From Deroplatys truncata (Eukaryota; Arthropoda; Insecta; Mantodea; Mantidae), in contig CM060978.1 in the NCBI GenBank assembly GCA_030765065.1, positions 216,585,498 through 216,649,497 on the forward strand: a stretch of DNA of 64,000 nt, read 5' to 3'. The notes under the pieces are model-generated. The model saw only the letters and a program-made list of their open reading frames with translations, did no database searches and had not been told where the DNA came from. The first letter of the stretch is position 1. Each line of letters starts with the position of its first letter. Shown here in pieces: positions 415 through 50,214 of the stretch. Both the position numbers and the translations under genes were made by a program.

Positions 415-1621
415 CACTACGTGATCAAAAGTATCCGGACACCTGGCTGAAAATGACGTATAAGTTCGTGGCGGCCTCCTTGGTAATGCTGGAAATCAAT
501 ATGGTGTTGGCCCACCCTTAGCCTTGATAACAGCGTTCACTTTCGCAGCCATACTTTCAATCAGGTGCTGGAAAGTTTCTTGGGGAATGGCAGCCCATTC
601 TTCACGGAGCGCGGAGGTCGGTGAGGCCTGGCACAAAGTGGGCGTTCCAAAACATCCCAAAGGTGTTCTATAGGATTCAAGTCAGGACTCTGTGAAAGCC
701 AGTCCATTACAGGGATGTTACTGTCGTGTAACCACTCCGTCACAGCCTGTGCAGTATAAACAGGTGCTCGATCGTGTTGAAAGATGCAATCGCATCCCCG
801 AATTGCTCTTCAACAGTGGGAAGCAAGAAGGTGCTTAAAATATCAATGTAGGTCTGCTCTGTGATCGTGCCACGCAAAACAAGGGGTGCAAGCTCCCTCC
901 ACGACCAGACCATAACACCACCATCTCCGAATTTCACTGTTGGCACTACACACGCTGGCAGATGACGTTCACCGGGCATTCGCCAAACCACGCCCTGCCA
1001 TTGGATCGCCACATTATGTACCGTGATTCGTCACTCGGCACAACGTTTTGTCACTGTTCAATCGTGTAATGTTGACGCTCCACACGAAGCGAGGCGTCGT
1101 TTGGCATTTTTCTGTGTAGTGTGGCTTATGAGCAGCCGCTCGACCATGGAATCCAAGGTTTCTCACCTCACGCCTAACTGTCGTAGTAATTGGATTGAAT
1201 CCTGATGCAGTTTGTAATTCCTGTGTGATGGCCTGGATAGATGTCTGCATATTACTCTTTACGACACTCTTCAAATGTCGGCAGTCTCTGTCAGTCAACA
1301 GACGAGGTCGGCCTATACGCTTTTGTTCTGTACATGTCCCTTCACGTTTCCACTTCACTATCACATCAGAAACAGTGGACCTAGGGATGTTTAGGAGTGT
1401 GGAAATCTCGCTTACAGACTTCTGACTTAAGTGATACCCAATCACCTGACCACGTTCGAAGTCCGTGAGTTCCACGGAGCGTCCCATTCTGCTGTTTCAC
1501 GATGTCTAATGACTACTGAGGTCGTGGATAATGAGTACCAGGCAATATGTGGCAGCACAATGCACCTAAGATGAAAAACGTATGTTTGTGGGGGTGTCCG
1601 GATACTTTTGATTACATAGTG
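415..1621 (-). mobile_element. Tc1-like DNA transposon, family A, copy 1
   Basis: The ends are inverted copies of each other (CACTACGTGATCAAAAGTAT at the left; its near-complement ending CATAGTG at the right). They are flanked by TA at 413-414 and 1622-1623, the target duplication expected of the IS630-Tc1-mariner superfamily. The 1207-bp length fits one transposase gene. Copies 2-4 lie at 35689-36897, 47573-48808 and 54796-56006. The left end abuts a SINE. Confidence 0.9.
496..1487 (-). pseudogene. Tc1-like transposase, family A, frameshifted
   Basis: This is the transposase of the surrounding element, which would cut and join DNA at the terminal repeats. The first 157 residues (1487-1014) are open and hold the N-terminal helix-turn-helix DNA-binding region, with FERGQVIGYHLSQKSV, then an AT-hook-like GRPR motif at about residues 59-62. 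The catalytic part is broken: the GGVMVWS region is in one frame (1012-740) and [12 protein letters not shown], which carries the catalytic Glu, is in another (743-561). The second catalytic Asp lies near a frame break. The C-terminal GGPTPY and stop at 496 are in a third frame. The start at 1487 matches copies 2 and 3. It is inactive. Confidence 0.85.
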
Positions 1622-5178: not shown

Positions 5179-5380
5179 TTCACATTCAGTGGGTACAAAC
5201 TACTTGTTATATTAACTCGAGGTAATGCATTAGAACGATGTCGTTACGTTATCTATATCAGAAAATAAATAACATGTTTAAATTTTAAGCAAGCAGGAAA
5301 GAAAAAAACAAAGCAAGAAAGAAATACACATAAAGGAATACAGAGATCCAATAGGCTAAGAAAAAACTTGCAATGGTCTA

Positions 5381-5513
5381 TTTTTACTTTCTCCACTACG
5401 TATGGTAAGTAGGGGAAGTATTGCATTCCACCAAAAAGTTGATACCGAGGTTTCACAGGAAATATATGTTTTGAGGTGCTCTGAAAGCATATAAAACATT
5501 TTTGGAAACATGT

Positions 5514-5551
<38 letters not shown>

Positions 5552-6683
5552 TGTGAACAGCATAACTCAGAAACGAACAGTCGGATAAACACCAAACTTG
5601 GCATGTAGGTTCAGTATCTTCCAGAGATGCGAAACAATGGTTTTCAAGAAAATCCCCCACCCCAGATCCCAGATTACCCTTTACATGGAACATTTTTTGA
5701 ACATTTTAATTTTCTCAAAAATGAATCTAAGGATTTTGATTAAAATATCATATATTTAAGATATTTTCATGACAAATAAAATTTATATCTTGAATTTTCT
5801 GGGAATGTCTCTAAAAAGTATTCTTCATTGTGAACGACTTTGCATAACTGGTAAACCATAAGAGATAGACAAAATTTTACTGCACAAAAAAGCTTGTATG
5901 TCAAATTTGACAAAAAAAGAACCAAATGGTGTGAAGATAAACTGTAACTTCTTGTTGATCACTTACAATAAAAACTGAAGTGGTTGTAGAAATAACTATA
6001 CAATATCTTAGTTTCAAATTAGAATTGTATCTAACAATCAGAAGTAATTAATTTCTTCAGCTAAGTTGACGATTTGTGTGCTGTACACTGCTCTACAATG
6101 ATTAAATATTTTTGGCTACATCAGTATTTTTGTTGTAGTTCTTGTTTACTGCATTTATGTAAGATGAAATTAATAGATTATTTGTAAATTAAAAAAATGG
6201 TTAAAAACAATTATTACTTTTTAATTCTGAACTGCTTGTCATGGCATGTACATTTTACTTGCTGAGAGAAAATACCTGAAGGCAGTATCAGCAAAACTGA
6301 AGTCCTTAAATTAAAAAAATATAGCGTAGATCGCGTTAAAATACACAATCTAGGTCATATACATTTTTGTTGTTGAGTGAACCATTTTCGAGATATTGCT
6401 TGTTATTCCCTTAAATTTTCCAATACTTATACTTTTTCTCAAATTCGTTATTCATTTTTTTTTGTCCTGGACATGCAAAGAGAATGGAATACTCCACGTA
6501 GCAACTAGCTCTTAAAATATTTGACTATCGCTTAAAGCCTACCAATTCCCCTTGTATCTGTGAAAAAATTAGCAATAAGATTAACATCTCGATTAACATG
6601 AAGCATATGGAGAATGAGCGTTTGTAAAAATAGTTTGTACACGAGTAGAGTAAGTCATGTGAGTGTAACACATCAGATTTTTT
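5381..6683 (+). repeat. HLR copy 2, interrupted
   Basis: A well-preserved copy from TTTTTACTTTCTCC to CACATCAGATTT, with a long (GT)n array at about 5515-5551. It is interrupted between about 5891 and 6325 by some 435 bp of unrelated AT-rich DNA. HLR sequence resumes at GTAGATCGCGTTAAAATACA, exactly where the first part stopped. Confidence 0.85.
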
Positions 6684-7421
6684 TGCCTGCTATGGAGAGA
6701 ATTGTAATTCAGTATGCTGTCTAATACATATCGTGTATTTCAGCCTATTCTAACTCTGCTCGGCTGAGTAAGAGTACTGGCGCGTAGGCAGCAACAGTGC
6801 TCGGAGTGCGACTGGAGAGGGAGCGTGATAGCGAATACGTCACTGAGCGAAGGTCATAGCACAAATGTTTTGCTTTCTGCCAATCTTGAGGTGGTTTCGT
6901 TTTTCATAGCATATCACTCAACATCAAGCCGGGAAGACCCGTTGATTATTTCGTGGGAACAACAGTTTCTGTTTACCGAAAAGGACGAACTCCCGTAGTG
7001 TCTTGTATGTCAAAAGATGCTGAACTCAACGAGGAAATGGAACGTACAGCGTCATTATACACCACTTCACTCAGCCTTGCCCTAGTGCTGGGCTGTATTG
7101 CATGCTGCAGGCAGACTCCTATGAGTACTTTTGGCGCACACCGAAGCTGTAACAGCCTGGCCCACTGTCCTTGAATGCATAACACCTATAGGGGTGATGG
7201 GAATTGGTAGGCGCGAGCTTGGTAAAGCTGCATATATTATCATTAAGGCTCGGAAGTTGGGGCCTAGCGTTCCTAAGCGACCGATATTCAATGACAACAA
7301 ACACCTCCTAATCATACAGAGGTACTGTCACTGAGTACACGTTGTGTTGATTTTGTTTACGTTATACCTGTAGTCCCAGTTAACTCCTGGACACACCGGG
7401 TGTCAATATCTAGTATTAATA
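6684..7421. other. Unassigned interval
   Basis: This is more CpG-rich than its surroundings, especially 6760-7330. It has short open frames on both strands (for example 6953-7174 plus and 7082-7315 minus), none of which I recognise. No repeat partner was seen in this window. It could be a unique host sequence or a single-copy TE fragment. Confidence 0.3.
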
Positions 7422-7424
7422 TAA

Positions 7425-8409
7425 GACTAGTCTGCATTTTCAATCTTGTTGTCAGATGATTTCTTAAAAGTAGGTGTTCATGAATCAAGTTTTATGCTGA
7501 TTCCAGAAATAACTTCCGTTTTTTTCTATCACGTCAGGTTTTTACACAAAATAAGAAGTAATATTTGACAATTTTACTAATGAGCTTAGAAAAGTATTCA
7601 AATACCATTTCACACAATGTAAGTTTTTATTAAAGAAGCATTATAAGAATACTCTCAACAACTCCAATAATTTATTTTATGACTACATTTTAACAAAACA
7701 AGAAGCCAAAGTGTTTCATTTAATTTTTTTCAAACTTTCTCATGTTTGACTTCCTTGCAGATCCTTGAAGATGACTGTCCCTTCTCAACATCCAACAGTA
7801 GTCGGTCATCATAGTTTCATTCCATCTCCCCTTAATATCTTGGTGAAAACATTCACCCTGCTCTTCACTATAATGTCCCAGATTTTCTGGAAACTAGTCG
7901 ATATGTAAATGCAGAAAATGCACCTTTACACTCATGTTACAACCCATCTTCTGAAATTTTCCAACATTGTTTCGACAATGGCCTTGTAATTAGGATCTTT
8001 GTTATTGCCTAAGAAGTTTTCAGTAACTGATGGGAAGGCGGTCCATGCTTCTATTTCTCTCTCATTCATTGTCTTCTCAAAATCTTCATCCTTCATCAAT
8101 TTCTTTATTTGAGGACCAACAAAAATTCCAGCCTTTAATTTGTGTTGTGTAATGAAGGGAAATTTCTTGGAAAGGTACTTGAATCAGGGTCCATCCTGTG
8201 GTAGAGCCCTTACAAATTGCTTCATCAAGCCCAATTTTATGCGTAGTGGCAGAAGCAATATCTTTATATCTCTATATTTTTGAAGTGAAATTGTAAAAAA
8301 AAACTGTACATGATAGAAAAAAAATTAAAAGCAGTTCTGAAATCAGCATATAAAAGTGACTTAGAATCACTTACTAGTTTTCAGTCATCCGATATCATGC
8401 AGACTAGTG
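7425..8409 (-). mobile_element. CACT-TIR element, short copy 1
   Basis: Closely related over its whole length to 28514-29523. The left end reads GACTAGTCTGCAT (consensus CACTAGTCTGCAT) and the right end ATGCAGACTAGTG, so the termini are inverted repeats. The flanks are TAA at 7422-7424 and TTA at 8410-8412; the other copies have TAA on both sides, so one base has probably mutated. It carries the C-terminal part of an unnamed arthropod protein on the minus strand. Confidence 0.7.
7720..8290 (-). pseudogene. Fragment of conserved arthropod protein of unknown function
   Basis: This is the C-terminal part of the protein carried by the CACT-TIR elements, recognisable on the minus strand by alignment to the better copy at 28811-29415. 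A 21-bp deletion removes the codons around MERRYQG, and further lesions break the frame. Related proteins recur in many arthropod genomes as uncharacterised proteins; I know no tested function. The link to a TIR element here suggests it is a transposon gene. Confidence 0.6.
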
Positions 8410-8412
8410 TTA

Positions 8413-9584: not shown

Positions 9585-10887
9585 CACTGCCGTTTGTGAA
9601 AATTGCAACACCAAGAAAGAATTTCCCAAATAAATCCAAACTTAGTGGAAGTGTAGAAGAGTGTGCAAGCAATAAGTGATTAGGTTTGCAGAGAGATGGG
9701 ATACACGTAAGCCGAGCAGAGCCCTCTCATGTCGGTCCGACAAGGTCACTGTTGCGCCTAGTGTAGTCAATGCAGAGCTGTCAAACATGGTGGAAACAAT
9801 AAAGAGAGTGCCAGTATGCCTTGTCGACGTCAAAGGGAACCATATCGGCATGTGAGTGAGTTCGAACGGAGCAGAATGATCGGTTTCCGGGAAGCGAGTT
9901 TGTCATACCGTGACATTTCGGCTCGTACAGGGCATTCTGCTAAGACAGTGATGCGTGTGTGGAAGCAGTGGGTAGATGGATGTCGTACGCAGCGAAGAAC
10001 GGGTACTGGACCACGGAATATGACCACAGCACGGGATGACCGTCATCTTGTCCGCATGACCATAACGGACCGTACAGCTTCATCCACAGTGTTGGCTCGA
10101 CGCAGGAGCACTGCAACAGGTGTGAACTTGTCTGCATCAACGGTTCGTCGCCGTCTGCTGCAGATTGGACTGGTTGCCTGCATGCCATTACGTCGGCTTC
10201 CATTGTCCAGAAACTACAAGCTCTTTCGACTGCAATGGGCACGTGAACACCGTCACTGGAGTGCTGAGTGGCATACGTGTCCGGCGGTACTGTGGTGCGG
10301 GCAACCTGGAGGGCTGCATTGTTGAGCGGCATAGCGGACAAACAAGCGGTGTGACGGTTTGGGGCGGCATTGGTTACAACAACCGATCTCGCCTTCTACG
10401 AAATTGAGGGCACTTTGAACAGCAACCGGTACCTAATGTTGGTTGCAAAGCCGGAGGTACTCCCCCTACTTTAGGCATCTCCACAGGCCACATTTCAACA
10501 GGACAATGCCCGGTCACATATTGCGAGGAATGTACAGGCGTTTTTCGAAGAGCGACGGGTACCATTGTTTCCCTGGTCTGCACGGGATATGGTTGGTCGG
10601 CACCTGGTGCGTCACGGTCCTCCAGTAACCAGTGCAATGAATACAAGCTGCATGGAGGAAAATCCCTCCAGAACTTATTCAGAACCTTTTTGATTCAATG
10701 CCACGGCGTATAGCAGCTCTAATTGCGGATGGAGGCCACACCAAATACTGAACATTAGGACTCAAAGGTCATGTATAGACTTGAAAAGTTTATCATTTGT
10801 TACTTGTCATGTACCTAACCTGAGGTATTAAATTCGTTGATTTCAGGCATTTCTTTCTTGGTGTTGCAATTTTCACAAATGGCAGTG
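9585..10887 (+). mobile_element. Tc1-like DNA transposon, family B
   Basis: Terminal inverted repeats of about 38 bp with very few mismatches (CACTGCCGTTTGTGAAAATT at the left; the right end is the complement with A for G) are flanked by TA at 9583-9584 and 10888-10889. Its length is 1303 bp. The termini and protein differ clearly from family A. It is nested in HLR copy 3. Confidence 0.92.
9816..10751 (+). pseudogene. Tc1-like transposase, family B, catalytic region damaged
   Basis: The first 170 codons are open: an N-terminal helix-turn-helix with ERSRMIGFREASLSYRDISA, a basic linker, then STVLARRRSTATGVNLSAST and VRRRLLQIGL. Later, GVTVWGGIGYN and FQQDNARSHIA (second catalytic Asp) are in other frames. 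After FFPWSARD-like sequence (FPWSARDM) the frame goes straight to VGRHLVRHGPPV. In related Tc1 transposases this place holds SPIEHVWD with the catalytic Glu, so that residue appears to be deleted (about 27 bp, near 10591). A further frameshift and stops follow; the end at 10751 is a TGA after a GGHTKY-like end. It is inactive. Confidence 0.85.
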
Positions 10888-11368: not shown

Positions 11369-12316
11369 AAAAATCTGATGTGTTACACTCACATGACTTT
11401 CTCTACTCTTGTACAAACTATTTTTACAAACTCTTATTCTCCATCTATTTCATATTAATCGAGATAAACATTTGCAGAAACAATCTTTTGACATGCAAAG
11501 AAAATTGCATTTTATACATAGCGACCAGTCCTAAAAATACTTGAATATCGCTACTATGTTCCCCTTGTTTTGTATTTGCAGGGGCAATATAGAAATACAG
11601 TAGCCTTTAAGCATAGACATATCTCTTAATAGCTGGTTCCTATGTGCAGCACCATTCTCTTTGCCACAGATTAATACTCTTTGCATATCCAAGACAAAAA
11701 CATGAATAACGAATTCCCATTTGAGAAAAAGTATAAGTATTGGGAAATTTAAGGGAATAACAAGCAATATCTCGAAAATGGTTCACTCAAAAATGATGTA
11801 TATGACATAAATTGTGTACTTTAACGCGATTTACATTTTTTGTGTAGTAAAATTTTGTCTATCTCTTATGGTTTATCAGTTATGCAAAAGTCGTTCACAA
11901 TGAAGAATACTTTTGGAGACATTCCCAGAAGATTCGAGATATACATTTCATTTTTCATGAAAATATCTTAAACATATGATACTTTAATCAAAATCGTTGG
12001 AGCAATTTTTGAGAAAATTAAAATTTTCGAAAAATGTTCCATGTAAAGGGTAATCTGGGGTGGGGCGATTTTCTTGAAAACCTTCAAGTCGCATCTCTGG
12101 AAGATACTGAACCTAAATACCAAGTTTTGTGTTTATCCGACTGTTCGTTTCTGAGTTATGCTGTTCACAGACACACACACATGGACATGTTTCCAAAAAT
12201 GCTTTTTTTTTGGATTCAGGCGGTCTCAAAACATGTATTTCCAGTGAAATTTCGGTATCGAATTTTTGGATGGAATACACTACTTCCCCTACTATACGTA
12301 GTAGAGAAAGTAAAAA
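11369..12316 (-). repeat. HLR copy 4
   Basis: Near full length, reading on the minus strand from TTTTTACTTTCTCTACTACG at 12316 to the 3' end at 11369. Its 3' end meets the 3' end of copy 3 with a gap of about 2 bp, giving a palindromic junction at 11339-11399. The microsatellite is short (about 12171-12180). Confidence 0.88.
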
Positions 12317-13167: not shown

Positions 13168-13229
<62 letters not shown>

Positions 13230-13446
13230 GTAATGCTTTTCGGATTCAGGGAGCCTCAAAGCACGTATTTCCGGTTAAATCCTGGAATCGAATTCCTGGA
13301 TGAAATGAATACTTACTCTACTTACTACAGGTAAGTAGAAGAGAAAGTAAAAATGCTTTTAATAAGGGAACCTCAAACGTATATTTGTGGTGAAATTGCT
13401 GTTTGATGTTTTTGGTGGAATGCAATATTTCCTAAATTTACTTTAG
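13100..13446 (-). repeat. HLR fragments with expanded (CA)n/(TC)n array
   Basis: The minus-strand pieces 13229-13353 and 13354-13446 both match the 5' quarter of HLR; the first ends in GAGAAAGTAAAAA. The internal microsatellite is expanded to about 88 bp of CA, TC and CA blocks (about 13141-13228). Confidence 0.6.
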
Positions 13447-13479
13447 GTAAATGGTAGAGCTCCAACTCCTAACTGATAA

Positions 13480-15816
13480 CACTGGCCAACAAAATTTCAG
13501 TTTTTTAAAGCTAAAAAACGTACAAAGGGTGATTCTTACTGATGTTTTTGTGCTGATTTCAAATCTTTTTACATAACGTTTCCATCACCCATAGTTTTTG
13601 AGTAATTGCATAAATAAGAATTCTGGTAATTATACATTTTAATATGTGTAGCACCTTAGCTAGAATACCTTTATGTGCTAAAATGAATGTGAAGTGGATA
13701 TTTGACTGTACTCTTAAGTGTCGAATAATAGCCACATATATGGAGTCCATCTTCCTTAGCGTTTTCCATTTCAGCATGTCCTGATGTAAACGCTCGCTAT
13801 TGTTCATTGCTGACATTGCCGAGGTTCTCAGGGAGGAAGTCAAGATCGGAGAGATTTTCAAAGACATATTGCATCCCATGATCTTGTAGTTCTCATTCAG
13901 CTCACTGACAAGTTCTCTGTAATGTTCAGAGCTGTAGCTTCCTTGAAAGTTTACGTTGTTTTTGAAAGAGAAACATGCAGCTCATTCTTGCATGTTTAAC
14001 AGACTTTCAAACTGTCAATGTTTCATAAGATCTCTAATTTGAGGAATGGCAAATATTTCCTCTTTTAGTTTCCCTTCACTAGTCTTTGGAAACTTAATTT
14101 TCTGGTACAGAATGCACACCCGTCACGATCCATTACTTTCACAAAGTTCTTAATAAAAGTAGTTTGATGTGTAATGGAGGCAATAACATTTTGTCAGCAC
14201 TTATAAGTGGTTGATGAACATTTGCTGTCCTGGATTTAACGACTCTCTTTGGCCAGCATTTTTTAACATAATGGTTGTTTTTATCTCTTCTGTCCCACAT
14301 GCACAAGAAACAGCAAAAGTTTGTATTCCCAAGTTGTAATCAAGTAAGATAGCTATCACTTTAATATCTGCACATATCTGCCATAAATAGTCATGCAGAA
14401 AGCTACGTTACGGTCAAGAATGTGGGGAGAGGTACATCAGGATGGAGACGTTAGGGAACCCTCCTGAATAGCAAGAGATGCATATTCCCGTAACTCTCCT
14501 TCATACCAACTGCGTGGGCTTTAGGAATGGATGGAAACTTGTAGCATTATGTAGCAGGACTCCTTTCAAGCTTGTTTTCGAGGAGTCAATGAACAAATGT
14601 CAGTGTTCAAATATATGTTGAATACCCAGGGACTCCATCAAGAAATCAACATTATTACAGAGAACTAGGTCCTCTTGTTTAGAAAATAAATGCTCAAATT
14701 CCTTTTGACATTGACAGAAAGAACTTACACTGGTGCCATTCTGCAGGAGGCAGCTTTTCAATCTTGAAGCGAATAACTTGACTTTACTCTTAGATAACGT
14801 AAGATCACGAACCAAATCATTTAGATCTACTTGTGTTAGAAAGTGCGGTTCGTTTATAATAGCTCCAACCACAAAATCTGGGTCATTCTGTTGTTGTAAT
14901 TCACCAATGTCATCAATACTTTCAAAATCTTCAGTTACATTTCTGTCGTCTGGTTGAGTTGATATGGGAAGGCCTGGTCCATGAGGCACTGGTCGAATTG
15001 CTGATTCTAAATATGGGTATTTAACAATATGTTTGGACTTTGAACTTATTCCAGATATGTCAAACAGAAGTAACAGACTGTTATGTGATCCATAGGTTCT
15101 CGCCATATATAGGAACTGCAAAAGACATATGACGGGACTCTTTTAGCCAGCCGGTTAATAGTGTTACGCATTTCGCACACAGATTTCCGGAGCCCAAAAC
15201 TTATTCTGGTCTATTTTACTGTCAAAATAACACTCATAAGCTCTTTTAATTCGAGGAGTAAAATTTCGCCTCTGTACTTTTAAAGTGAACTCACCACAAA
15301 TCTAACAAAAATTATTTTTATCGTTTACACTTTTGCGAGACTTTATCCTCCTTCTAATTCTCAATGACTAAGAAAGCACACTATTAGCTGACACTACACT
15401 TGTTAATTGCCAAGTAAGAACACACAGAATTAGTGTCTTTCATTAAACAAAGCTTCTACTCCTCTGGCAACTATGCAGGACCCTCTCTATCTGTAACAGA
15501 CCTTCCTTATCTGTTGTTGGAGTAAACATTGACCTGGGCGGCAAAGCCAGTTTTGTAAAGAGAAGCTCATTGTTGAACATTGTCATTCCTGAAATCCCAA
15601 AATCAAATATGTCTTTGTTGACCCAATGTAATAAAATTATTTTCTTTTAATCACTACATTCACTGCCCTATGCCAATAAACATGAACAGTTCTTTTAATA
15701 TTACAAAACAATGCTGGTTATGGAGCATTTCTGGCTTCATTTTTGTATTTTGACAGATGAAAATACATAAGAATCGGCAGAAATTATTCATTTAATATTT
15801 TCATTGTTGACCAGTG
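13480..15816 (-). mobile_element. CACT-TIR element, long copy
   Basis: The left end CACTGGCCAACAAAATTTC and the right end complement CACTGGTCAACAATGAAAAT form inverted repeats of about 13 bp with one mismatch, followed by weaker similarity. TAA flanks both sides (13477-13479 and 15817-15819). The right-end motif TGTTGACCAGTG resembles TGCAGACTAGTG of the short copies at 9 of 12 positions, and all three copies carry the same protein family on the minus strand. The length is 2337 bp, enough for one complete gene. Confidence 0.7.
13559..15121 (-). pseudogene. Near full-length relic of conserved arthropod protein of unknown function
   Basis: The first 173 codons (15121-14600) are open and contain PHFLTQVDLNDLVRDLTLSK (from about residue 92) and a CNNVDFLMESLG motif near the end. 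Further along, in shifting frames, come SSKTSLKGVLLHN, LWQICADIKVIAILL, a degraded cysteine-rich region, MLLPPLHIKL and GCNMSLKI. These blocks occur in this order in uncharacterised proteins known from many arthropods. At 14393-14466 the frame is broken by about 75 bp that match 19133-19205. The C-terminal part (13879-13559) is heavily mutated. Position inside a TIR element makes a transposase or accessory transposon protein plausible; no catalytic triad is identified. Confidence 0.65.
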
Positions 15817-15944
15817 TAAATTAACCTCTACAGTTGTAAAGAGTTAAACCATAATACTTTTGTTTCTCCCCCCCCCTTTCTTTTTGTGAGATTGAAATGC
15901 ATATAAATCATCACAAGTCTCCTTAGAAACAACTATTATGAGGC

Positions 15945-16660: not shown

Positions 16661-16780
16661 GTAGCATAGCTTACCAATAAGACGATGGACAGAGGTAATG
16701 AGAAATCATAATTTCAATGAAATAAAGTGTTGAAATTTTGATTGTAAAATTGTGGTGAATATTTGATGGTAAAGTAATTA

Positions 16781-17057
16781 AAAAATCTGATGTGTTACAC
16801 TCACATGACTTTATCTACTTTGTACAAACTATTTTTACAAATGCTTATTCTCCATCTACTTCATGTTAATCGAGATAAACATTTGCAGACTCTATCTTAT
16901 TGCTAATTTTCTTGTAGATGTAAGGTGATTATATATTTACAAGGGCAATATAGAAATACAGTTGCCTTTAAGCACATATATATCTCTTAATAGCTGGTTG
17001 CTAGGTGCAGAACCATTCCCTTTGCCACAGATTATAACTCTTTGCATATCCAAGACA
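16781..17057 (-). repeat. HLR copy 7, 3' third only
   Basis: Contains the minus-strand 3' end (AAAAATCTGATGTGTTACAC at the left edge) and about 275 bp of adjacent repeat, then stops inside CAAGACAAAAA, where copy 8 begins with its own 3' end. The two copies are in tandem in the same orientation. Confidence 0.85.
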
Positions 17058-17979
17058 AAAAAATCTGATGTATTACACTCACATGACTTTCTCTACTCTT
17101 GTACAAACTATTTTTACAAACGCTTATTCTCCATCTACTTCATGTTAATCGAGATAAACATTTACAGACTCTATCTTAATGCTAAGTTTCTTGTAGATGT
17201 AAGGGAAATATATATTTACAAGGGCAATATAGAAATACAGTAGCCTTTAAGCACATACATTTCTCTTAATAGCTGGTTGATAGGTACAGCACCATTCCCT
17301 TTGCCACAGATTAATACTCTTTGCATATCAAAGACAAAAAAATGAATAACGAATTCCCATTTGAGAAAATAAGTATTGAAAAATTTAAGGGAATAACAAG
17401 CAATATCTCGAAAATGGTTCACTCAACAACAAAAATGTATATAACATATATTGTGTATTTTAACGCGATCTACATTTTTTGTGTAGTAAAATTTTGTCTA
17501 TCTCTTATGATTTACCAGTTATGCAAAAGTCGTTCACAATGAAGAATGCTTTTGGAGACATTCCCAGAAAATTCAAGATATACATTTTATTTGTCATAAA
17601 AATATCGTAAACATGTGATATTTTAATCAAAATCGTTAGAGCCATTTTTGAGAAAATAAAAATTTTCGAAAACTCTTCCATGTAAAGGGTAATCTGGGGT
17701 GGGGGATTTTCTTGAAAACCTTCGAGTCGCATCTCTAGAAGATACTGAACCTAAGTACCAAGTTTGGTGTATATCCGACTGTTTGTTTCTGAGTTATGCT
17801 GTTCACAGAGAGACACACAGACAGACACACAGACACACACACACACACGGACATGTTTTCAAAACTGCTTTTTTTTGGATTCAAGGGATCTCAAAACATA
17901 TATTTCCGGTGAAATCTCGGTATCGAATTTTTGGGTGGAAGACAATACTTCCCCTACTTACTAGTAGAGAAAGTAAAAA
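17058..17979 (-). repeat. HLR copy 8
   Basis: Full-length minus-strand copy of the young subfamily, with AAAGTAAAAA at its 5' border (17979) and a short (CA)n array at about 17813-17848. Its 3' end is joined directly to the interior of copy 7. Confidence 0.88.
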
Positions 17980-18390
17980 TGTCAAGTGAAAAGCAAGTGG
18001 AAAAGGGACATGAAAAACAGGAGCAAGATAATTTATTGATGGGTGATTGTAAAATGTAGATAAACTGTAGTGGATGTCTATTGAATGAGTGGCCAGGGCC
18101 AAATTTGAGTAGTCAATCTAATTGTAAATTCCTTAACACTGTGACAATAAATACAAAATATATGCTATGAAAGAATTATATGCAAATATTTGGCTAGACG
18201 GTGTACGTAGAAAAGAAATATTATCCCACGTTTCAGTAATGTCATACGAAGAACTAAGAAGGAGAACTGTGAAGTAGCAGTATAGTGGTAGGGGAGTGTG
18301 CCATTATAGTGCGGAAACTTTAACATTTCGATGAAATGTGAAAAAGCTGTTGGAAACATTTGAAATGTGAATGAATCCAAAAATAAAGCG
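17980..18390. other. Unassigned interval
   Basis: AT-rich with scattered stops. It could be 3' UTR belonging to the LINE at 15945-16660, split by the HLR copies, but I cannot show this. Confidence 0.25.
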
Positions 18391-19132: not shown

Positions 19133-19600
19133 GAATGCAGAAAGCTGCGCTACAGTCAAGGATGTGGGTAGAGGTAAGTCAGGATGGAGACGTTAGGGAC
19201 CCCGCCTGCGTCCGAGCTTGCCGCCCTCTGTGTCGTTGGCTTCATCCCTTCCTCCTGGAGTTTTGCAGAAGCACAACAGGTGACTATGTATGCACTAAGT
19301 GCCGAAATCGACCTCCGCTTCCTGATAATCAGGCATAGGAATTTCCAAGCATTAAAGCCTAAAGAAACTTAGGTCGAACTATTACCGGACTTTATGCAAT
19401 GACGTGGTAGTTGACAACCACCCTCTATCCCTCCTTCAGCCTGTTAGCGTTTGCAGACCACTCACGACACGGTTTTACCTTCCGACAGTGACCCTTAGGA
19501 GGTATTGTTTAGTTCATTTGTACTCATAATGGTTTGAGTGTAGCTAACGAAGCCAACTGCTTAAAGATTCTTATGCCTGCTGATAACCACAACCATATAG
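19133..19600 (+). repeat. Interspersed repeat X, copy 1
   Basis: The right part (about 19328-19600) matches 35414-35680 in blocks such as AGCATTAAAGCC, GGACTTTATGCARTGACGT and ATAATGGTTTGAGT. The left part (19133-19205) matches the 75-bp insert at 14393-14466, both with TCAGGATGGAGACGTTAGGG. The family is unidentified. A short frame at 19135-19338 crosses the copy, but its protein is not recognisable. Confidence 0.55.
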
Positions 19601-23385: not shown

Positions 23386-24066
23386 TAAGAGTAACAACTA
23401 AAACATCGGATATTTAACAACATTACCATAGTTCATATATTAAATCATATATTAATATGTCGGACATACTGCGAGTTATGCTCTCCCTCCACGAGTATAC
23501 CGCAAGTTCTCTAATTTCTGTATCCAAATAACCATTCCTGCAGAGATAAATTCATGGAATTCATGTTGATAAATGGCAACAATGGCTCAATAAAAAGAAA
23601 TATATTTGTCGTGATATAACAGTTTCCTTAAATGTGAAGTATTCTTCTCTGATTATATACTAACACAATTTGTTCCTGGTCCCGGCAGATTTGGTACATA
23701 CTTCCGAAGATTTCATATTATCTCAGAAAAGGATCTCAATTCCCTTGTACAAATGAAGAAGCAGCAGCTTCGTCTGAGGTAAGCATGTCGTCTGGTTAAA
23801 CTAGTTATGATTTACTTTTCGTAATGATTTTCAAGAATCAGACTGACGCAGGTTCGTGTAGCAGTCCCTCTGGAGTCCCCCCATGTCCTAAAAGCCAGGA
23901 GTTTTTTAAGGTGCACTCCTGCTACCTCAGCAACCCTTCACCTCTTGGGCGAATGTCCTAACCCGAACCAGTAGAATTCGCGCACTGTTTCTAAGTTGAA
24001 AAAAACCCGACGCTGCGCCTAGTAACGACAGAGTGCTTGGACATAGGTACGTTCTGCGTGTCCGCC

Positions 24067-24930
24067 TTTTTACTTTCCCTACTACGTATAGTAAGTAAGG
24101 GAAGTATTGTATTCCACTCAAAAATTCGATACCGAGATTTCACCGGAAATATATGTTTTGAGGCCCCCTGAATCCAAAAAAAAACATTTTTGGAAGCACG
24201 TCCGTGTGTGTCTGTGTGTGTGTGTCTGTGAACAGCATAACTCAGAAACGAACAGTCGGATAACACCAAACTTGTTATTTAGGTTCAGTATCTTCCAGAG
24301 ATGCAAAACGACAGTTTTAAAGAAAATCCCCCCACCCCAGATTACCCTTTACATGGAACATTTTTAGAAAATTTTAATTTTCTAAAAATGGCTCTAACAA
24401 TTTTGATTAAAATATCATATATTTAAAATATTTTCATGACAAATAAAATGTATATCTTGAATTTTTTTGGAATGTCTCCAAAAGCATTCTTCATTGTGAA
24501 CAACTTTTGCATAACTGACAAACCATGAGAGAGATAGACAAAATTTTACTACACAAAAAATGTAGATCGCGTTAAAATACACAACTTATGTCATATACAT
24601 TTTTTTTGTTGAGTGAACCATTTTCAAGATATTCCTTGTTATTCCCTTAAATTTTCCAATACCTATACTTTATTCAAATGGGAATTCATTATTCATTTTT
24701 TTTGTCCTGGTAATGCAAAGAGAATGGAATGCGCCACACAGCAACCAGCTCTTAAAATATTTGACTGCCGCTTAAAACCTACCAATTCCCCTTGCATCTA
24801 CAAGAAAATTATCAATAAGATTAACATTTAGATATCTCCATTAACATGAAGCATATGGAGAATCAGCGTTTGTAAAAATAGTTTGCACAAGAGTAGAGAA
24901 AGTCATGTGAGTGTAACACATCAGATTTTT
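24067..24930 (+). repeat. HLR copy 9
   Basis: A full-length young copy, TTTTTACTTTCCCTACTACG to CACATCAGATTTTT, with a (GT)n array at about 24203-24232. The 12-bp motif recurs inverted about 30 bp before the right end. Confidence 0.92.
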
Positions 24931-27947: not shown

Positions 27948-28513
27948 CGGCTGTTTGCATTAGTTCATGAGGTAGGAAAGAACGATCAATTGACACTTCG
28001 AATGTATTGCTTAAAGTACTGGAAAATTTAACCCAACAATGGTAAATATCTCGGAGTTGGTTAAGGTTACGAAACGTTTTATTTCAGTTAATATGTATAC
28101 CTTAATAAGGCCTATATTTTCTTCTTTAGGTTTTTGTCTTATTCTTTCACAGTTACAGTAATACCAATTACATTAACTCTCAGAGTTATGACATTCTTCC
28201 ATACTGTTTTGGAATCGCATTTTACGCAAAACTCGACTTTTTTGTATATTGACTGAAGTGCCCTAATAATGTTTCCTGATAAACCCTTCAGCCGTAATTT
28301 CACCCAGAATGCTTGCCTTTCCTCACAGTGTAACGCTTTACGAAAATCTATAAAAGCACATGTAGTTTTCCTCTCTTTTTCCGGGTTTTTTCACTGTAAT
28401 ACTATCTAATATAAATATATTGTCTACCGTACTGCGTTTCTCCCTGAACCCCGCTTGAAATACCCACAATTTCTCGTTTTCGTTGACCCATTGTCTCAGT
28501 CGCTCATATATAA

Positions 28514-29523
28514 CACTAGTCTGCATTTTCAAGCTTTTTGTCAGATGATTTCTTAAAAGTAGGTGTTCTTGAATCAAGTTTTTATGCTGATTCTCGAAAT
28601 AGCTTCCGTTTTTTTCTATCACGTCAGGTTTTTACACAAAATAAGAAGTAGTGTTTTGACAATTTTACTAATGAGCGTAGAAAAGTATTGAAATACCATT
28701 TCACACAAGGTAAGTTTTTATTCAAGAAACATTTTAAGAATACTCTCAACAACTCCACTAATTTATTTCATGACTACATTTTAACAAAACAAGAAGCCAA
28801 AGTGTTTCGTTTAATTTTTTTCAAACTTTATCTTCTTTGACTTCCTTGCAGATCCTTGAAGATGACTGTCCCTCCTCAACATCCAACAGTAGTCGGCCAT
28901 CATAGTTTCATTCCATCTCCCCTGGTACCTCCTCTCCATTTCCTTAATATCTTGGTGAAAACGTTCACCCTGCTCTTCACTATAATGTCCCAGATTTTCT
29001 GGAAAGTAGTCGATATGTGAATGCAGAAAATGCACCTTTACACTCCTGTTACAACCCATCTTCTTGAAATTTTCCAACATAGTTTCGACAATGGCCTTAT
29101 AATTAGGATCTTTGTTATTGCCTAAAAGTTTGCAGTAACTGATCGGAAGGCAGTCCATACTTCTATTTCTCTCTCATTCATTGTCTTCTCAAAATCTTCA
29201 TCCTTCATCAATTTCTTTATTTGAGGACGACCAAAAATTCCATCCTTTAATTTGTCTTGTGTAATGAAGGGAAATTTCTTGGAAAGGTACTTGAAGCAGG
29301 GTCCATCCTGTGGTCGAGCCCTTACAAATTGCTTCATCAAGCCCAATTTTATGTGTAGTGGCGGAAGCAATATTTTTATATCTCTATATCTTTGAAGTGA
29401 CATTGTGAAAAAACTGTACGTGAGAGAAAAAAAAACAACTAAAAGCAGTTCTGAAATCAGCATATAAAAGTGAGTCAGAATCACATATCAGTTTTCAGTC
29501 ATCCGATATCATGCAGACTAGTG
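28514..29523 (-). mobile_element. CACT-TIR element, short copy 2, nested in LINE
   Basis: CACTAGTCTGCAT at the left and ATGCAGACTAGTG at the right are perfect 13-bp inverted repeats, with TAA on both sides (28511-28513 and 29524-29526). The flanks are two parts of one LINE reading frame. Removing the element and one TAA leaves codons for CCKIIYERLRQ without a frameshift. At 1010 bp it is a probable internal-deletion form of the 2.3-kb element type, keeping only the 3' part of the gene. Confidence 0.85.
28811..29415 (-). pseudogene. C-terminal part of conserved arthropod protein of unknown function
   Basis: The minus strand gives LPPLHIKLGLMKQFV, a GIFGRPQIKKLMKDEDF stretch, then after one frameshift near 29140 LGNNKDPNYKAIV, HFLHSHIDYFPENLG, GERFHQDIKEMERRYQG and MMADYCWMLRRD, ending in a lysine-rich tail and stop at 28811. 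This is the best-preserved copy of the C-terminal half in the window. Conserved His, Asp and Glu residues in the HFLHSHxDxFPENLG and ERFHQD blocks could be functional, but no catalytic role is established. N-terminal domains are absent. Confidence 0.7.
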
Positions 29524-30865
29524 TAATCTTACAGCAAATTTTACTCATTACTGGAAGAAGCGCTACCTCCTGTAATTGTCCGGAAGTTTTGTGCTTCTGT
29601 TTTTATATATTGAACATACAATTGTCGTCGTCCATTCCTGTGAAAATGTGCCTCCCCTTAAAAATTTTGTTCAATACTTTTAGCGCCAAACTTTTAAAGA
29701 TCTTGATTTTCATCCCCTCCTTAAATAGTTCAGCTGGTTTGCTATCTTTTAAACTCTTCATTGCCTGAATTACTTTCCGCATAGTTATATTGTTATCTAA
29801 GTTTTCGATTTTTGGCGCTCCTAGTAATTGGATTTCAGTCAGTATCGCCCCCTCCCAATTCCTCCCAACGCCAAAATTTTCCTGAAAATGGCTTTTTTAT
29901 TGCCCTGGTGTCATACAATTGTGCACAAGAGGACTCTTTCTAACCTTCTCAGAGTCCTCCACACAATAGCTTCCTGACACTGATATCATCTCCGAAATTT
30001 CCCCTACTATTTTCTGTCTCCATTCCTCCTTCTTACTGACTAATTACTCCTTGTATGTTTTTCTTAACAAAACGAAAATTTTTCCGTCTTTCTTCTGCCC
30101 CTTTCCTCCTAAAGACTTTGAGAACCCGGCCGATTGCCCTTTTACCTTTCTTGCATTCTCTGCTACACCAGTCACCCTAGGTAGAAAATGTGTTTCTCCC
30201 ACATTTTATTTTCATATTATTTTTAGCATCCCATATTGGAGGGATAAATTGGTTGTACAGTATTTCTGGGATCTTCAGTGTTATCCAGAATTTCTCTCAA
30301 GTTTTCTCTATATGTCTCCCCTTCCCCTTCCCTCCATTGATATCGTATTCTTAGTCGGCCTTGCCTTCAGTATTACCAACCCCCGGGACGTTCTCTCTTT
30401 CTTTTTCTACTGGGATACGTAAACCTAAAGGAAAATGGCAAGAGACGACCCTGTCCCCTACCCAGAAATCTCTAACTAATCGTATAGTTTCTGAGCTGCA
30501 GAAATTATACCATTTGCCTTTATAAATGCCAGTTCACCCTGTAAATCTTGACCATACGTGACATTGAGAATTTCTAAGTCTAGGGCATCTCAAAGCAGCT
30601 CTCTTCTTCGGATTAATTACTTTATCTTCGCTCATACTACACGCTAGCACTTTCCCCTGTGTCCGAAAGAGATGTTTTCGCTCCCTATCCTGGCATTGAA
30701 ATCCACTAATATAATGATCATTGTGCTGGAATGCATTTCCTGTAAATCCGTCATCTTTTCTGTTAAATCGTCAAAGAATGTCAGACTCAATATTTGGATG
30801 CGGTTGGCGCGTTATAAACAGAAATAATTATGAACTCTGTATAAAGGACATCCTAATAAGGTTCT

Positions 30866-35688: not shown

Positions 35689-36897
35689 CACTATGTGATC
35701 AAAAGTATCCGGACACCGCCACAAACATACGTTTTTCATCTTAGGTACATTTTGTGCTGCCACCTACTGCCTGGTTCTCATTATCCGCGACCTCAGTAGT
35801 CATTAGACATGTGAAACAGCAGAATGGGGTGCTCCGTGGAACTCATGGGCTTCGAACGTAGTCAGGTGATTGGGTGTCACTTGTGTCAGAAGTCTGTACG
35901 CGAGATTTCCACACTCCTAAACATCCCTAGGCCCACTGTTTCTGATGTGATAGTGAAGTGAAAACGTGAAGGGACATGTACAGCGCAAAAGCGTATAGGC
36001 CGACCTCGTCTGTTGAGTGACAGAGACCGCCGACATTTGAGGGTCGTAAAGAGTAAAAGCAGACATCTATCCAGACCATCACACAGGAATTCCAAACTGC
36101 ATCAGGATCCACTCCAAGTACTATGACAGTTAGGCGTGAGGTGAGAAACCTTGGATCCCGTGGTCGAGCGGCTGCTCATAAACCACACATCACGCAGGAA
36201 AATGCCAAACGACGCCTCGCTTGGTATAAGGGGCGTCAACATTACAGGATTGAACAGTGGCAAAACGTTGTGTGGAGTGACGAATCACGGCACACAATGT
36301 GGCAGGGTGTGGGTATGACGAATGCCTGGTGAACGTCATCTGCCAGCGTGTGTAGTGCCAACAGTGAAATTCGGAGGTGGTGGTGTTATGGTGTGGTCGT
36401 GTTTTTCCTGGAGGGGGCTTGCACCCCTTGTTGGCACGATCACAGCGCAGACCTACATTGATATTTTAAGCACCTTCGGGCTTCCCACTGTTGAAGAGGA
36501 ATTTGGGGATGGCGATTGCATGTTTCAACACGATACTGCACGGGCTGTGGCGGTGTGGTTACACGACAATAACACCCCTGTAATGGACTGGCCTGCACAG
36601 AGTCCTGACTTGAATCCTATAGAACACCTTTGGGATGTTTTGGAACGCCGACTCGTGCCAGGCCTCACCGACCTACATCGATACCTCTCCTCAGTTCCGC
36701 ACTCCGTGAAGAATGGGCTGCCATTCCCCAAGAAAACTTCGAGCACCTGATTGAAAGTATGCCTGCGAGAGTGAGCGCTGTCATCAAGGCTAAAGGTGGG
36801 CCAACACTATATTGACTTCCAGCATTACCGATGGAGGGCGCCACCAACTTGTATGTCATTTTTAGCCAGGTGTCCGGATACTTTTGATCACGTAATG
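35689..36897 (+). mobile_element. Tc1-like DNA transposon, family A, copy 2
   Basis: Inverted ends CACTATGTGATCAAAAGTAT and the complement at the right are flanked by TA at 35687-35688 and 36898-36899. The length is 1209 bp. Noncoding parts upstream and downstream of the transposase match copies 1, 3 and 4. Confidence 0.9.
35824..36815 (+). pseudogene. Tc1-like transposase, family A, broken
   Basis: Starts MGCSVEL, as in the other copies. A stop replaces a conserved Trp in the DNA-binding domain (VIVK-stop-KREG, about 35959-35961). A frameshift near 36060 leads to MTVRREVRNLGS and VVWSDESRHT, which carries the first catalytic Asp. Another frameshift near 36320 leads to [28 protein letters not shown] (second Asp) and [12 protein letters not shown] (catalytic Glu). 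The segment after FQHD lacks several residues found in copy 3 (APVHT region), so the D-to-E distance is shortened. It is inactive. Confidence 0.85.
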
Positions 36898-38060: not shown

Positions 38061-38855
38061 TTTTTACTTTCTCCACCACATATAGTAAGCAGGGGAAGTA
38101 TTGTATTCCACCCAAAAATTCGATACCGAGATTTTTGGAAACATGTTCGTGTGTGTGTGTGTCTGTGAACAGCATAACTCCGAAACGAACAGTCGGATAA
38201 ACACCAAACCTGGTGTTTAGGTTCAGTATCTTTCAGAGATGTGACACGAAGGTTTTCAAGAAAATCCCTCCACCTCAGATTACCCTTTACATGGAATATT
38301 TTTCGAAAATTTTAATTTTCTCAAAAACGGCTCTAACGCTTTTGATTAAATATCATATGTTTAAGATATTTTTATGACAAATGAAATGTATATCTCGAAT
38401 TTTCTGGCAATGTCTCCAAAAGTATTCTTCATTGTGAACGACTTTTGCATAACTGGTAAACCCTAAGAGATAGACAAACTTTTACTACACAAAAATGTAG
38501 ATCGCGTTAAAATACACAATTTATGTCATATACATTTTTTTGTTGAGTGAACCATTTTCGAGATATTGCTTGTTATTCCCTTAAATTTTCCAATACTTAT
38601 ACTTCTTCTCGAATTCGTTATTCATTTTTTTTGTCAGGGTAATGCAAAGAGAATGGAATACTCCACATAGCAACGAGCTCTTAAAATATTTGACTATCGC
38701 TTAAAACCTACCAATTCCCCTTGCACCTACAAGAAAATTAGCAATAACGTTAACATCTCGATATCTGGAATAACATGAAGCATATGGAGAATAAACGTTT
38801 GTAAAAATAGTTTGTACAAGAGTAGAGAAATTCATGTGAGTGTAACACATCAGAT
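38061..38855 (+). repeat. HLR copy 11
   Basis: Nearly full length. A deletion of about 50 bp after ATACCGAGATTT removes the CACCGGAAATATATG block. The 3' hairpin ATGTGAGTGTAACACAT is intact at about 38833-38849. Confidence 0.9.
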
Positions 38856-38861
38856 ATTTTT

Positions 38862-43944: not shown

Positions 43945-44730
43945 ATTACTTTCTCAACTACGTATAATAATTAGGGGAAGTATTGTATTCCATCCAAAAC
44001 TTCGATACCGAGATTTCACCGGAAATATATGTTTTGAGACCCCCTGAATCCATAAAAAGCATTTTTGGAAACATGTCCGTGTATGTGTGTCTGTGAACAG
44101 CATAACTCAGAAACGAACAGTCGGATAAACACCAAACTTGGTATTTAGGTTCAGTATCTTCCAGAGATGCGACACGAAGGTTTTCAAGAAAATCCCCCCA
44201 CCCCAGATTACCCTTTACATGGAACATTTTTCGAAAATTTCAATTTTCTCAAAAATGGCTCTAACGATTTTGATTAAAACATCATATGTTTAAGATATTT
44301 TCATGACAAATAAAATGTATATCTTGAATTTTCTGGGAATGTCTCCAAAAGTATTCTTCATTGTGAACGACTTTTTGCATAATGGTAAACCATCAGAGAT
44401 AGACTAAATTTTACTACACAAAAAATGTAGATCGCATTAAAATACACAATTTATGTCATATACATTTTGTTTTGAGTGATCCATTTTCGAGATATTGCTT
44501 GTTATTCCCTTAAATTTTCCAATACTTATACTTTTTCTCAAATTCGTTATTCATTTTTGTTTGTCCTGGTAATGCAAAGAGAATGGAATACTGCACATAG
44601 CAACCAGCTCTTAAAATATTTGACTATCGCTTAAAGCCTAGATTAACATGAAGTATATGGAGAACAAGCGTTTGTAAAAATAGTTTGTACAAGAGTAGAA
44701 AAAGGCATGTGAGTGTAATACATCAGATTT
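43945..44730 (+). repeat. HLR copy 14
   Basis: A full-length frame from ATTACTTTCTCAACTACG to CATCAGATTT. It lacks about 70 bp before the 3' end (the CCAATTCCCCTTGCATCTAC block). The microsatellite is reduced to GTGTATGTGTGTC. Confidence 0.9.
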
Positions 44731-47572: not shown

Positions 47573-48808
47573 CACTATGTGATCAAAGGTATCCGGACAT
47601 CCCCACAAACATACGTTTTTCATCTTAGGTGCATTGTGCTGCCACCTACTGCCTGGTACTCATTAACCGCGACCTCAGTAGTCATTAGACATCGTGAAAC
47701 AGCAGAATGCGACGCTCCGTGAAACTCACGGACTTCGAACGTGGTCAGGTGATTGGGTGTCACTTGTGTCAGAAGTCTGTACGCGAGATTTCCACACTCC
47801 TAAACATCCCTAGGTCTACTATTTCTGATGTGATAGTGAAGTGGAAACGTGAAGGGACAAGTACAGAACAAAAGCGTACAGACCGGCCTCGTCTGTTGAC
47901 TGACAGAGGCCGCTGACATTTGAAGAGGGTCGTAAAGACATCTATCCAGACCATCATACAGGAATTCCAAACTGCATCAGGATCCACTCCAAGTACTATG
48001 ACAGTTAGGCGTGAGGTGAGAAACCTTGGATTCCATGGTCGAGCGGCTGCTCATAAGCCACACATCACGCAGGAAAATGCCAAACGACGCCTCGCTTGGT
48101 GTAAGGAGCGTCAACATTACACGATTGAACAGTGGCAAAACGTTGTGTGGAGTGACGAATCACGGTACACAATGTGGCGATGCGATGGCAGGGTTTTGGG
48201 TATGGCGAATGCCTGGTAAACGTCATCTGCCAGCGTGTGTAGTGCCAACAGTGAAATTCAGAGGTGGTGGTGTTATGGTGTGGTCGTGTTTTTCCTGGAG
48301 GGGGTTTGCACCCTTTGTTGTTTTGCGCGGCACGACCACAGCGCAGACCTACATTGATATTTTAAGCACCTTCTTGCTTCCCACTGTTGAAGAGCAATTC
48401 GGGGATTGCAATTGCATCTTTCAACACGATCGAGCACCTGTTCATACTGCACGGGTTGTGGCGAAGTGGTTACACGACAATAACATCCCTGTAATGGACT
48501 GGCCTGCACAGAGTCCTGACTTGAATCCTATAGAACACCTTTGGGATGTTTTGGAACGCCGACTTCGTGCCAGGCCTCACCGACCTACATCGATACCTCT
48601 CCTCAGTTCCGCACTCCTGAAGAATGGGCTGGCATTCCCCAAGAAACCTTCCAGCGCCTGATTGAAGGTATGCCTGCGAGAGTGAACGCTGTCATCAAGG
48701 CTAAGGGTGGGCCAACACCATATTGACTTCCAGCATTACCGATGGAGGGCGCCACGAACTTGTACGTCATTTTCAGCCAGGTGTTCGGATACCTTTGATC
48801 ACGTAGTG
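47573..48808 (+). mobile_element. Tc1-like DNA transposon, family A, copy 3 (best preserved)
   Basis: CACTATGTGATCAAAGGTAT at the left and its complement at the right are flanked by TA at 47571-47572 and 48809-48810. The length is 1236 bp, the longest of the four and so closest to the ancestral element. Confidence 0.92.
47707..48726 (+). pseudogene. Tc1-like transposase, family A, nearly complete
   Basis: The protein would be about 340 residues, the usual size for Tc1 transposases. The N-terminal helix-turn-helix with FERGQVIGCHLCQKSVREIS is open to a TGA at 47914-47916. The second frame holds MTVRREVRNLGFHGRAAAHK and VVWSDESRYT (first Asp). After a frameshift near 48190 come [34 protein letters not shown] (second Asp) and [12 protein letters not shown] (Glu). 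Counting gives 34 residues between the second Asp and Glu, so this is a DD34E enzyme, the Tc1 signature. A last frameshift near 48620 separates the C-terminal GGPTPY end. Three lesions make it inactive. Confidence 0.9.
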
Positions 48809-48810
48809 TA

Positions 48811-49240
48811 GGTTACATGAGGCTTTTTTTAAGTTCTACGTGAGTTAGCATGCAGTTGCATGGTGAGGTGGTGGTATCTGTGGAGTATGTAAATTTGCGC
48901 GGTCTCCTCAGTGGGAGCCGCATAACCTTTAGTATGAGCAATTCTGGTAAACAGTCTAAAATAATTTGTTGCATTACCTAAATGCAATTTAAATAACTTT
49001 CAGTGCAATATCGTCCAAAAAAAGAGCAAGGCATTCACTCAACGCGTTTTTTTATAGCAACCACCTCTTTTTTTTTAAATTTTAATTTTTTTTTTCGTAA
49101 CCATCGGTCCTTCCTTATTGGGGGGGGGTAATTGAATGGCAGTTCTCTGCCAAGGCTAATTTGTTTTATTTTTATTTTTTTAAAGTTTTTTTTAGTTTTT
49201 TTATTTTTATTTCATTTTATTTATTTATTTTTTTAATGTT
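48811..49240. other. T-rich low-complexity stretch
   Basis: From about 49046 the plus strand is dominated by T runs with one G8 run (about 49122-49130), leading directly into the T run at the HLR 5' border. Confidence 0.5.
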
Positions 49241-50123
49241 TTTTACTTTCTCTACTACGTATAGTAAGTAGGGGAAGTATTGTATTCCACCCAAAATTTC
49301 GATACCGAGATTTCACCGGAAATACATGTTTTGAGACTCACTGAATCCAAAAAAAGCATTTTTGGAAACATGCCCGTGTGTGTGTCTGTCTGTGTGTCTG
49401 TGTGTCTGTCTGTGTGTCTGTGTGTCTGTGAACAGCATAACTAAAAAACGAAGAGTCGGATAAACACCAAACTTGGTATTTAGGTTCAGTATCTTTCAGA
49501 GATGCGACACGAAGGTTTTCAAGAAAATCCCCCCACCGCAGACTACCCTTTACATGGAACATTTTTCGAAAATTTTAATTTTCTCATAAACGGCTCTAAC
49601 GATTTTGATTAAAATATCATATGTTTAAGATATTGTCATGACAAATAAAATGTATATCTCGAATTTTCTGGGAATGTCTCCAAAAGTATTCTTCGTAATG
49701 AACGACTTTTTCATAACTGGTAAACCATAAGAGATAGACAAAATTTTACTACACAAAAATGTAGATCGCGTTAAAATACACAATTTATGTCATATACATT
49801 TCTTTTGTTGAGTGAACCGTTTGCGAGATATTGCTTGTTATTCCCTTAAATTTTCCAATAGTTATACTTTTTCTCAAATTCGTTATTCATTTTTTTTATG
49901 TCCTGGACATGCAAAGAGAATGGAATGCGCCACATAGCAACCAGCGTTAAAATATTTGACTATCGCTTAAAACCTACCATATTCCCCTTGCATCTACAAG
50001 AAAATTATCAATAAGATTGACATCTCGATATCTTGATTAACATGAAGCATATGGAGAATAAGCGTTTGTAAAAATAGTTTGTACAAGAGTAGAGAAAGTC
50101 ATGTGAGTGTAACACATCAGATT
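49241..50123 (+). repeat. HLR copy 16 (reference copy)
   Basis: This complete young copy was used as the reference. At the 5' end ACTTTCTCTACT (49245-49256) follows TTTT, and a near-palindromic CTACTACGTATAGTA overlaps it. A (GT)n/(GTCT)n array lies at about 49374-49430. Near the 3' end the same 12 bp recur inverted as AGTAGAGAAAGT (50088-50099), then the hairpin ATGTG-AGTGTAA-CACAT (50101-50117), then CAGATTT. No long gene is present. A minus-strand frame starting MFHVKG recurs between copies, but its end depends on the microsatellite phase. Confidence 0.93.
50101..50117 (+). other. 3'-terminal hairpin of HLR
   Basis: Five-bp stem ATGTG/CACAT with a 7-nt loop, placed 3-4 nt before the repeat border. 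It is also present at 24905-24921, 38833-38849 and 62719-62735, and inverted in the minus copies. Confidence 0.7.
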
Positions 50124-50214
50124 TCATGTTTTTTTTTTAATTTTGTGCAATGTATTTATTTATTTACTTTATTTTGGGATAGGTTTTCAGGAGAATATGG
50201 AAACTACTACACAA

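Follow-up and report, generated by a model that had tools for sequence, protein, structure and literature searches.

Chapaev transposons are described as having CAC/GTG termini, and for the Chapaev3 group the same account reports TWA target duplications, verified at paralogous empty sites, with insertion between an A and a T (PMC4079192). It also gives C(2)C, LH and H(4)H as the motifs of the Chapaev3 transposase, describes Garfield_BM as 2289 bp long with a transposase of 556 aa, and reports internal-deletion derivatives from silkworm and lizard (PMC4079192). A motif order with C(2)C and LH past the second D, and H(4)H between LH and E, is described for EnSpm, Mirage, Chapaev and Transib (PMC12730594). 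In the account of PMC4411706, Chapaev3 bears a zinc-finger (Chapa) domain, and Chapaev and Chapaev3 are drawn as clades of the Transib superfamily, not of CMC. Chapaev3 copies are listed in a fly (PMC3630058), and Chapaev is reported among the DNA transposons found in all arthropods investigated in PMC6327564.

We analysed a 64,000-nucleotide stretch of the Deroplatys truncata genome (the window), in which positions 28514-29523 hold an element that is very probably a dead, non-autonomous member of the Chapaev3 group of DNA transposons (DDE cut-and-paste type, CMC superfamily), derived by deletion. The ends, the target site, the size and several short motifs are the basis of this assignment; the copies are decayed, and they are set beside Chapaev3 by its published description, not by transposase or TIR sequence.

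Insertion of a TIR element into a LINE reading frame

The element (copy 1) and its surroundings comprise the following features:

28514-29523, no strand: copy 1, very probably Chapaev3-type, non-autonomous and internally deleted; 1010 bp, with 13-bp TIRs, TAA flanks and a split LINE frame
28514-28526, plus strand: left TIR CACTAGTCTGCAT, identical to the right TIR (13/13)
29511-29523, minus strand: right TIR CACTAGTCTGCAT, identical to the left TIR (13/13)
28511-28513, no strand: left target duplication TAA, preceded by A
29524-29526, no strand: right target duplication TAA, followed by T
29527-29896, minus strand: upstream part of the LINE reading frame, seen in the open frames and in the joined frame
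28139-28513, minus strand: downstream part of the LINE, reverse transcriptase (RVT_1)

Both the perfect 13-bp inverted ends and the TAA on each side, which a preliminary description had read from the sequence, were seen at these positions. Allowing up to three mismatches, the 13-mer of copy 1 occurs 15 times in the window compared to a mean of 15.42 expected from shuffles, so that a single inexact TIR match is uninformative. The ends were also evaluated as pairs in 200 shuffled windows, counting CACT...AGTG pairs with the same TWA on both sides and a spacing of 500-4000 bp. A 13/13 pair was found in none of the 200 shuffled windows and a pair of at least 11/12 in one of them, while the real window holds two pairs of at least 11/12, namely 28514-29523 (13/13) and 13480-15816; chance TIRs were ruled out by these shuffles. 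A wider scan of the window (TWA+CACT...AGTG+TWA, spacing 100-6000 bp) gave 55 pairs, the top two being copy 1 and the relic at 13480-15816 (copy 3), and copy 2 (see below) is absent from it because a G replaces the first C of its left end.

When the flanks were joined without the element and one TAA, an 83-aa frame (KQKHKT...SKICCKIIYERLRQWV...) was open across the junction, and the Pfam RVT_1 match improved from E 0.051 (unjoined frame 28338-28631) to E 0.00078 (joined), both under the Pfam cut-off score. We confirmed the claim that a LINE reverse transcriptase frame is rejoined by this deletion. The LINE frames 29603-29896 (upstream) and 28139-28390 (downstream) had zero Pfam matches when searched alone. 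Against PDB sequences, the joined fragment gave four weak matches, to a mannosyltransferase (E 0.21), an R2 retrotransposon protein (E 0.27) and a pair of chains listed as reverse transcriptase-like protein (E 0.98). Weak Pfam matches of LINE pieces to Herpes_BTRF1 (E 0.073) and Meiosis_expr (E 0.069) were taken as chance.

The rejoined frame had also been put forward as defining a 3-bp duplication. The duplication of TAA is right, but at the junction only drops of 1, 2, 4 and 5 bp are disfavoured; the frame stays open with a drop of 6 bp and, by arithmetic, of 0 bp. The length of 3 bp leans on the identity of the two TAA and on the other copies, because the frame test cannot separate 3 from 0 or 6. 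A look for empty sites in related LINE copies had been suggested; within the window, blastn found no LINE paralogue that spans the junction without the insertion. Overall, copy 1 is confirmed as a genuine mobile DNA element that inserted into another mobile element and duplicated TAA.

Related copies in the window and their transposase remnants

A second, full-length copy was found by blastn, and both of the approximately 1-kb copies hold remnants of a transposase:

7425-8409, no strand: copy 2, full length, the same putative deletion derivative as copy 1 (blastn)
7723-8294, minus strand: copy 2 transposase remnant (tblastn), with HFLHLH at 7903-7920
29125-29406, minus strand: copy 1 transposase remnant, first part, with the LH motif LPPLHIK at 29347-29367
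28814-29125, minus strand: copy 1 transposase remnant, second part in a different frame, with the H(4)H motif HFLHSH at 29015-29032

Copy 2 matches copy 1 with 91.8% identity over 1012 columns by blastn; in a full alignment of the two, 929/1013 columns are identical, with 53 substitutions and 31 gap columns (94.6% without gap columns). Since the two copies can be aligned end to end, the part that they miss is the same in both; their coding remnants differ in where the frame is broken. Apart from the G that starts its left TIR, the ends of copy 2 are as in copy 1, and it is flanked by TAA (7422-7424) and TTA (8410-8412), a mismatch best read as a single later mutation inside the duplication. 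Both copies retain about the last third of the transposase, roughly from LPPLHIK to the end. With the C-terminal part only, they would be internal-deletion derivatives, movable only in trans. The protein words quoted in the preliminary description are present on the minus strand. The second part of the copy 1 remnant also has a candidate catalytic E (GERFHQD, 28949-28969), and the counterparts of LPPLHIK, HFLHSH and GERFHQD in copy 2 are LPLRIK, HFLHLH and GECFHQD. Structure prediction of the E-bearing piece (28811-29173) from its single sequence was poor, with a mean pLDDT of 53.6, too low to bear on an RNase-H fold.

A distant third relative was detected by tblastn at about 13.8-14.2 kb, and reading outward from it led to a longer element, whose ends are of the CACTGGYCAACA type and which is flanked by TAA at 13477-13479 and 15817-15819:

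13480-15816, no strand: copy 3, a 2337-bp relic of a longer element that bore a transposase, with TIRs CACTGGCCAACA / CACTGGTCAACA
15064-15301, minus strand: cysteine-rich N-terminal region, broken by frameshifts
14576-14593, minus strand: candidate first catalytic D (FIDSSK)
14354-14383, minus strand: candidate second catalytic D (WQICADIKVI)
14295-14315, minus strand: C(2)C motif (CCFLCMW)
14163-14183, minus strand: LH motif (LPPLHIK)
13775-13832, minus strand: decayed C-terminal part (PENLGNVSNEQ), with ERLHQDM, a candidate catalytic E, in another frame

Read along the minus strand in several frames, copy 3 presents, in sequence, the cysteine-rich N-terminus (ICGEFTLK at 15278-15301, APEIC at 15179-15193 and WREPMDHITVCYFC at 15064-15105), a 180-aa open stretch, FIDSSK, WQICADIKVI, CCFLCMW, LPPLHIK and ERLHQDM. 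By this reading, copy 3 holds most of a broken transposase. Its cysteine-rich N-terminus would fit the Chapa zinc finger; Pfam matched no domain model to this region in the read-through. The motifs are spread over the copies, none of which has all three: C(2)C was seen in copy 3 only, copies 1 and 3 share LH, and H(4)H is found in copies 1 and 2. Copy 2 no longer has the H of LH, and copy 3 no longer has the histidines of H(4)H; the candidate D words are found in copy 3 only, and E-bearing words in all three copies. Pieced together, the order runs in copy 3 from the second candidate D to C(2)C and LH, and in copy 1 from LH through H(4)H to the candidate E, which agrees with the order described for EnSpm, Mirage, Chapaev and Transib (PMC12730594).

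An alternative explanation is that the protein-like frames, which do exist here, are a fragment of a host gene rather than of a transposon. We dismissed it as having next to no probability, given three separate copies that are each bounded by TIRs and TWA and whose frames are decayed.

Two further repeats were noticed around copy 3. A 74-bp stretch between its candidate D residues (14393-14466) matches 19135-19208 with 87.8% identity and seems to belong to a different repeat. Upstream of its left end, at about 13183-13356, lies a repeat of roughly 150-180 bp with seven further sites (61879-62042, 49240-49416, 24064-24231, 17814-17981, 5380-5556, 43946-44095 and 12166-12316; 72-78% over 156-184 columns) and shorter matches elsewhere.

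Target sites and termini compared to described transposon groups

All six sides of the three copies have TWA flanks (TAA/TAA for copy 1, TAA/TTA for copy 2, TAA/TAA for copy 3). Outside these flanks, A precedes the left one in 3/3 copies and T follows the right one in 2/3, copy 3 having A there, so that five of the six sides fit. CACT...AGTG termini are present at both ends of copies 1 and 3 and at the right end of copy 2, with G for C at its left. These features resemble Chapaev3 as described for Merrow, Garfield and Conan, with CAC...GTG ends and an A-TWA-T target (5/6 sides here); further likenesses to that description are the C(2)C, LH and H(4)H motifs, here scattered over the copies, the occurrence of internal-deletion derivatives, and the size, with 2289 bp for Garfield_BM compared to 2337 bp for copy 3 (PMC4079192).

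The TWA duplication had first hinted at a PIF/Harbinger element, the type with which the preliminary description associated it, and TAA is indeed duplicated at copies 1 and 3. This type of duplication is not confined to PIF/Harbinger, being a Chapaev3 signature in PMC4079192 as well; by itself it is no proof of PIF/Harbinger, as Chapaev3 reportedly makes the same one. PIF/Harbinger TIRs are described as usually beginning with A or G, while the ends here begin with C; most candidate autonomous elements in that account have two ORFs, one of them Myb/SANT, compared to one protein here, and their average length of about 4.1 kb exceeds that of the 2.3-kb relic (PMC4482050). Pfam matched no Harbinger transposase or Myb/SANT domain in the protein pieces or in the read-throughs of the decayed copies, in agreement with the earlier statement that the encoded protein is not recognisable as a Harbinger transposase. 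With no domain match and ends that begin with C, a PIF/Harbinger identity was dropped as extremely unlikely.

A closer neighbour is CACTA/EnSpm in the narrow sense, which belongs to the same CMC superfamily and would be expected to end in CACTA and to duplicate 3 bp without preference for their sequence. The first bases of copy 1 are indeed CACTA and its target duplication is 3 bp long; EnSpm shares the C(2)C and H(3-4)H motifs and their order, and CAC..GTG ends with 3-bp duplications are deemed consistent with EnSpm in PMC12730594. However, TWA is found on 6/6 flanks, which is the pattern described for Chapaev3 (PMC4079192), and a 2-bp duplication is reported for some animal CACTA derivatives (PMC6004678). 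The ends of the copy 3 relic, moreover, are CACTG, and we consider CACTA/EnSpm unlikely. Transposase_21, the Pfam model for EnSpm-type transposase, was unmatched in our Pfam search.

Subterminal repeats

Inside the TIRs, end alignments revealed a pair of repeats in copy 1:

28558-28639, plus strand: left subterminal repeat, element positions 45-126
29403-29484, minus strand: right subterminal repeat, element positions 890-971

These are mutually inverted (84% over 31 nt) and match the opposite ends of copy 2 (72% over 75-79 columns). The repeat has a counterpart close to the left terminus of copy 3 (13528-13571; 45 columns, 77.8%, E 0.004); the alignment of the right end of copy 3 is only a loose one. 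The subterminal repeats are likely transposase-binding sites. One could also suppose a separate CMC lineage beside Chapaev3, with a core of its own (LPPLHIK, HFLHSHIDYFPENLG, GERFHQD) and with distinct subterminal repeats that families with different TIRs have in common. We regard this as quite improbable; if it were true, a single transposase could mobilise elements with unlike ends.

Searches for relatives

The profile search that had been suggested for the protein gave no Pfam family above cut-off, with protein pieces or with read-throughs of the decayed copies. Matches to DUF4756 (frame 13562-13981, E 0.0049, below cut-off) and of the copy 3 read-through to OKR_DC_1_N (E 0.2) were taken as chance. 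Relatives of the transposase were not found in viral, prokaryote, phage and plasmid collections. Pattern scans returned 5 and 126 matches in viral contigs and 55 in genome contigs, none of them backed by tblastn, and other patterns had 0 matches. The scan with the LH motif in viral contigs produced three stretches (L001-L003), which were discarded as chance because the best tblastn E value with the copy 1 protein was only 0.096. PDB sequences had zero matches to the A1 profile or to the copy 3 relic, Rfam had zero matches at gathering scores, and a full-text literature search with the protein words found no paper. Similar uncharacterised proteins are present in insect and Hydra genomes.

The lack of any matched named family or relative in Pfam and in these collections could be taken to favour a new transposon group, separate from the known ones, in which CAC...GTG ends and A-TWA-T targets arose by convergence, and the preliminary description had raised an undescribed group. 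The missing relatives weigh little, because viral, prokaryote, phage and plasmid collections are unlikely homes for animal transposons. The structural features tested agree with those published for Chapaev3, except that copy 2 departs in its flanks and left end and copy 3 in its right neighbour, and that the motifs are scattered; the ends, target and relic motifs match the Chapaev3 description (PMC4079192). We therefore hold a new group to be highly improbable; of the earlier identification, the TIR element and its TAA duplication in a LINE stand, and the undescribed group lacks support. The clean insertion in a LINE frame and the nearby relic of a longer relative help to annotate the genome, and they represent no new transposon class.

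Proposed mode of transposition

For a Chapaev3-group element, the transposase would be supplied by an autonomous relative of the 2.3-kb kind, of which 13480-15816 would be a relic. The ends would be recognised through the cysteine-rich N-terminus of the transposase and the subterminal repeats, both with presumed DNA-binding roles. The DDE core would then cut beside CAC/GTG and insert the element at a staggered 3-bp break in A-TWA-T, whose repair would generate the TWA duplication. The part lost by the derivative would begin shortly inside the 5' end and stop shortly ahead of the LH motif; the derivative keeps both ends and therefore would be movable in trans. In the window it occupies two sites, one of them the LINE.

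Other repeats in the window

Four Tc1/mariner-type transposase fragments were identified among seven scanned frames by HTH_Tnp_Tc3_2 or DDE_3, at 1014-1496 (minus strand), 9762-10325 (plus), 36319-36750 (plus; DDE_3 match just under cut-off) and 48020-48661 (plus). A dispersed repeat of approximately 60 bp at 6625-6708 has 10 other blastn matches with 81-97% identity (eight of them at 87-97%), at sites including 11369-11426, 16780-16837, 24873-24930, 38802-38861, 50069-50124 and 62687-62747.
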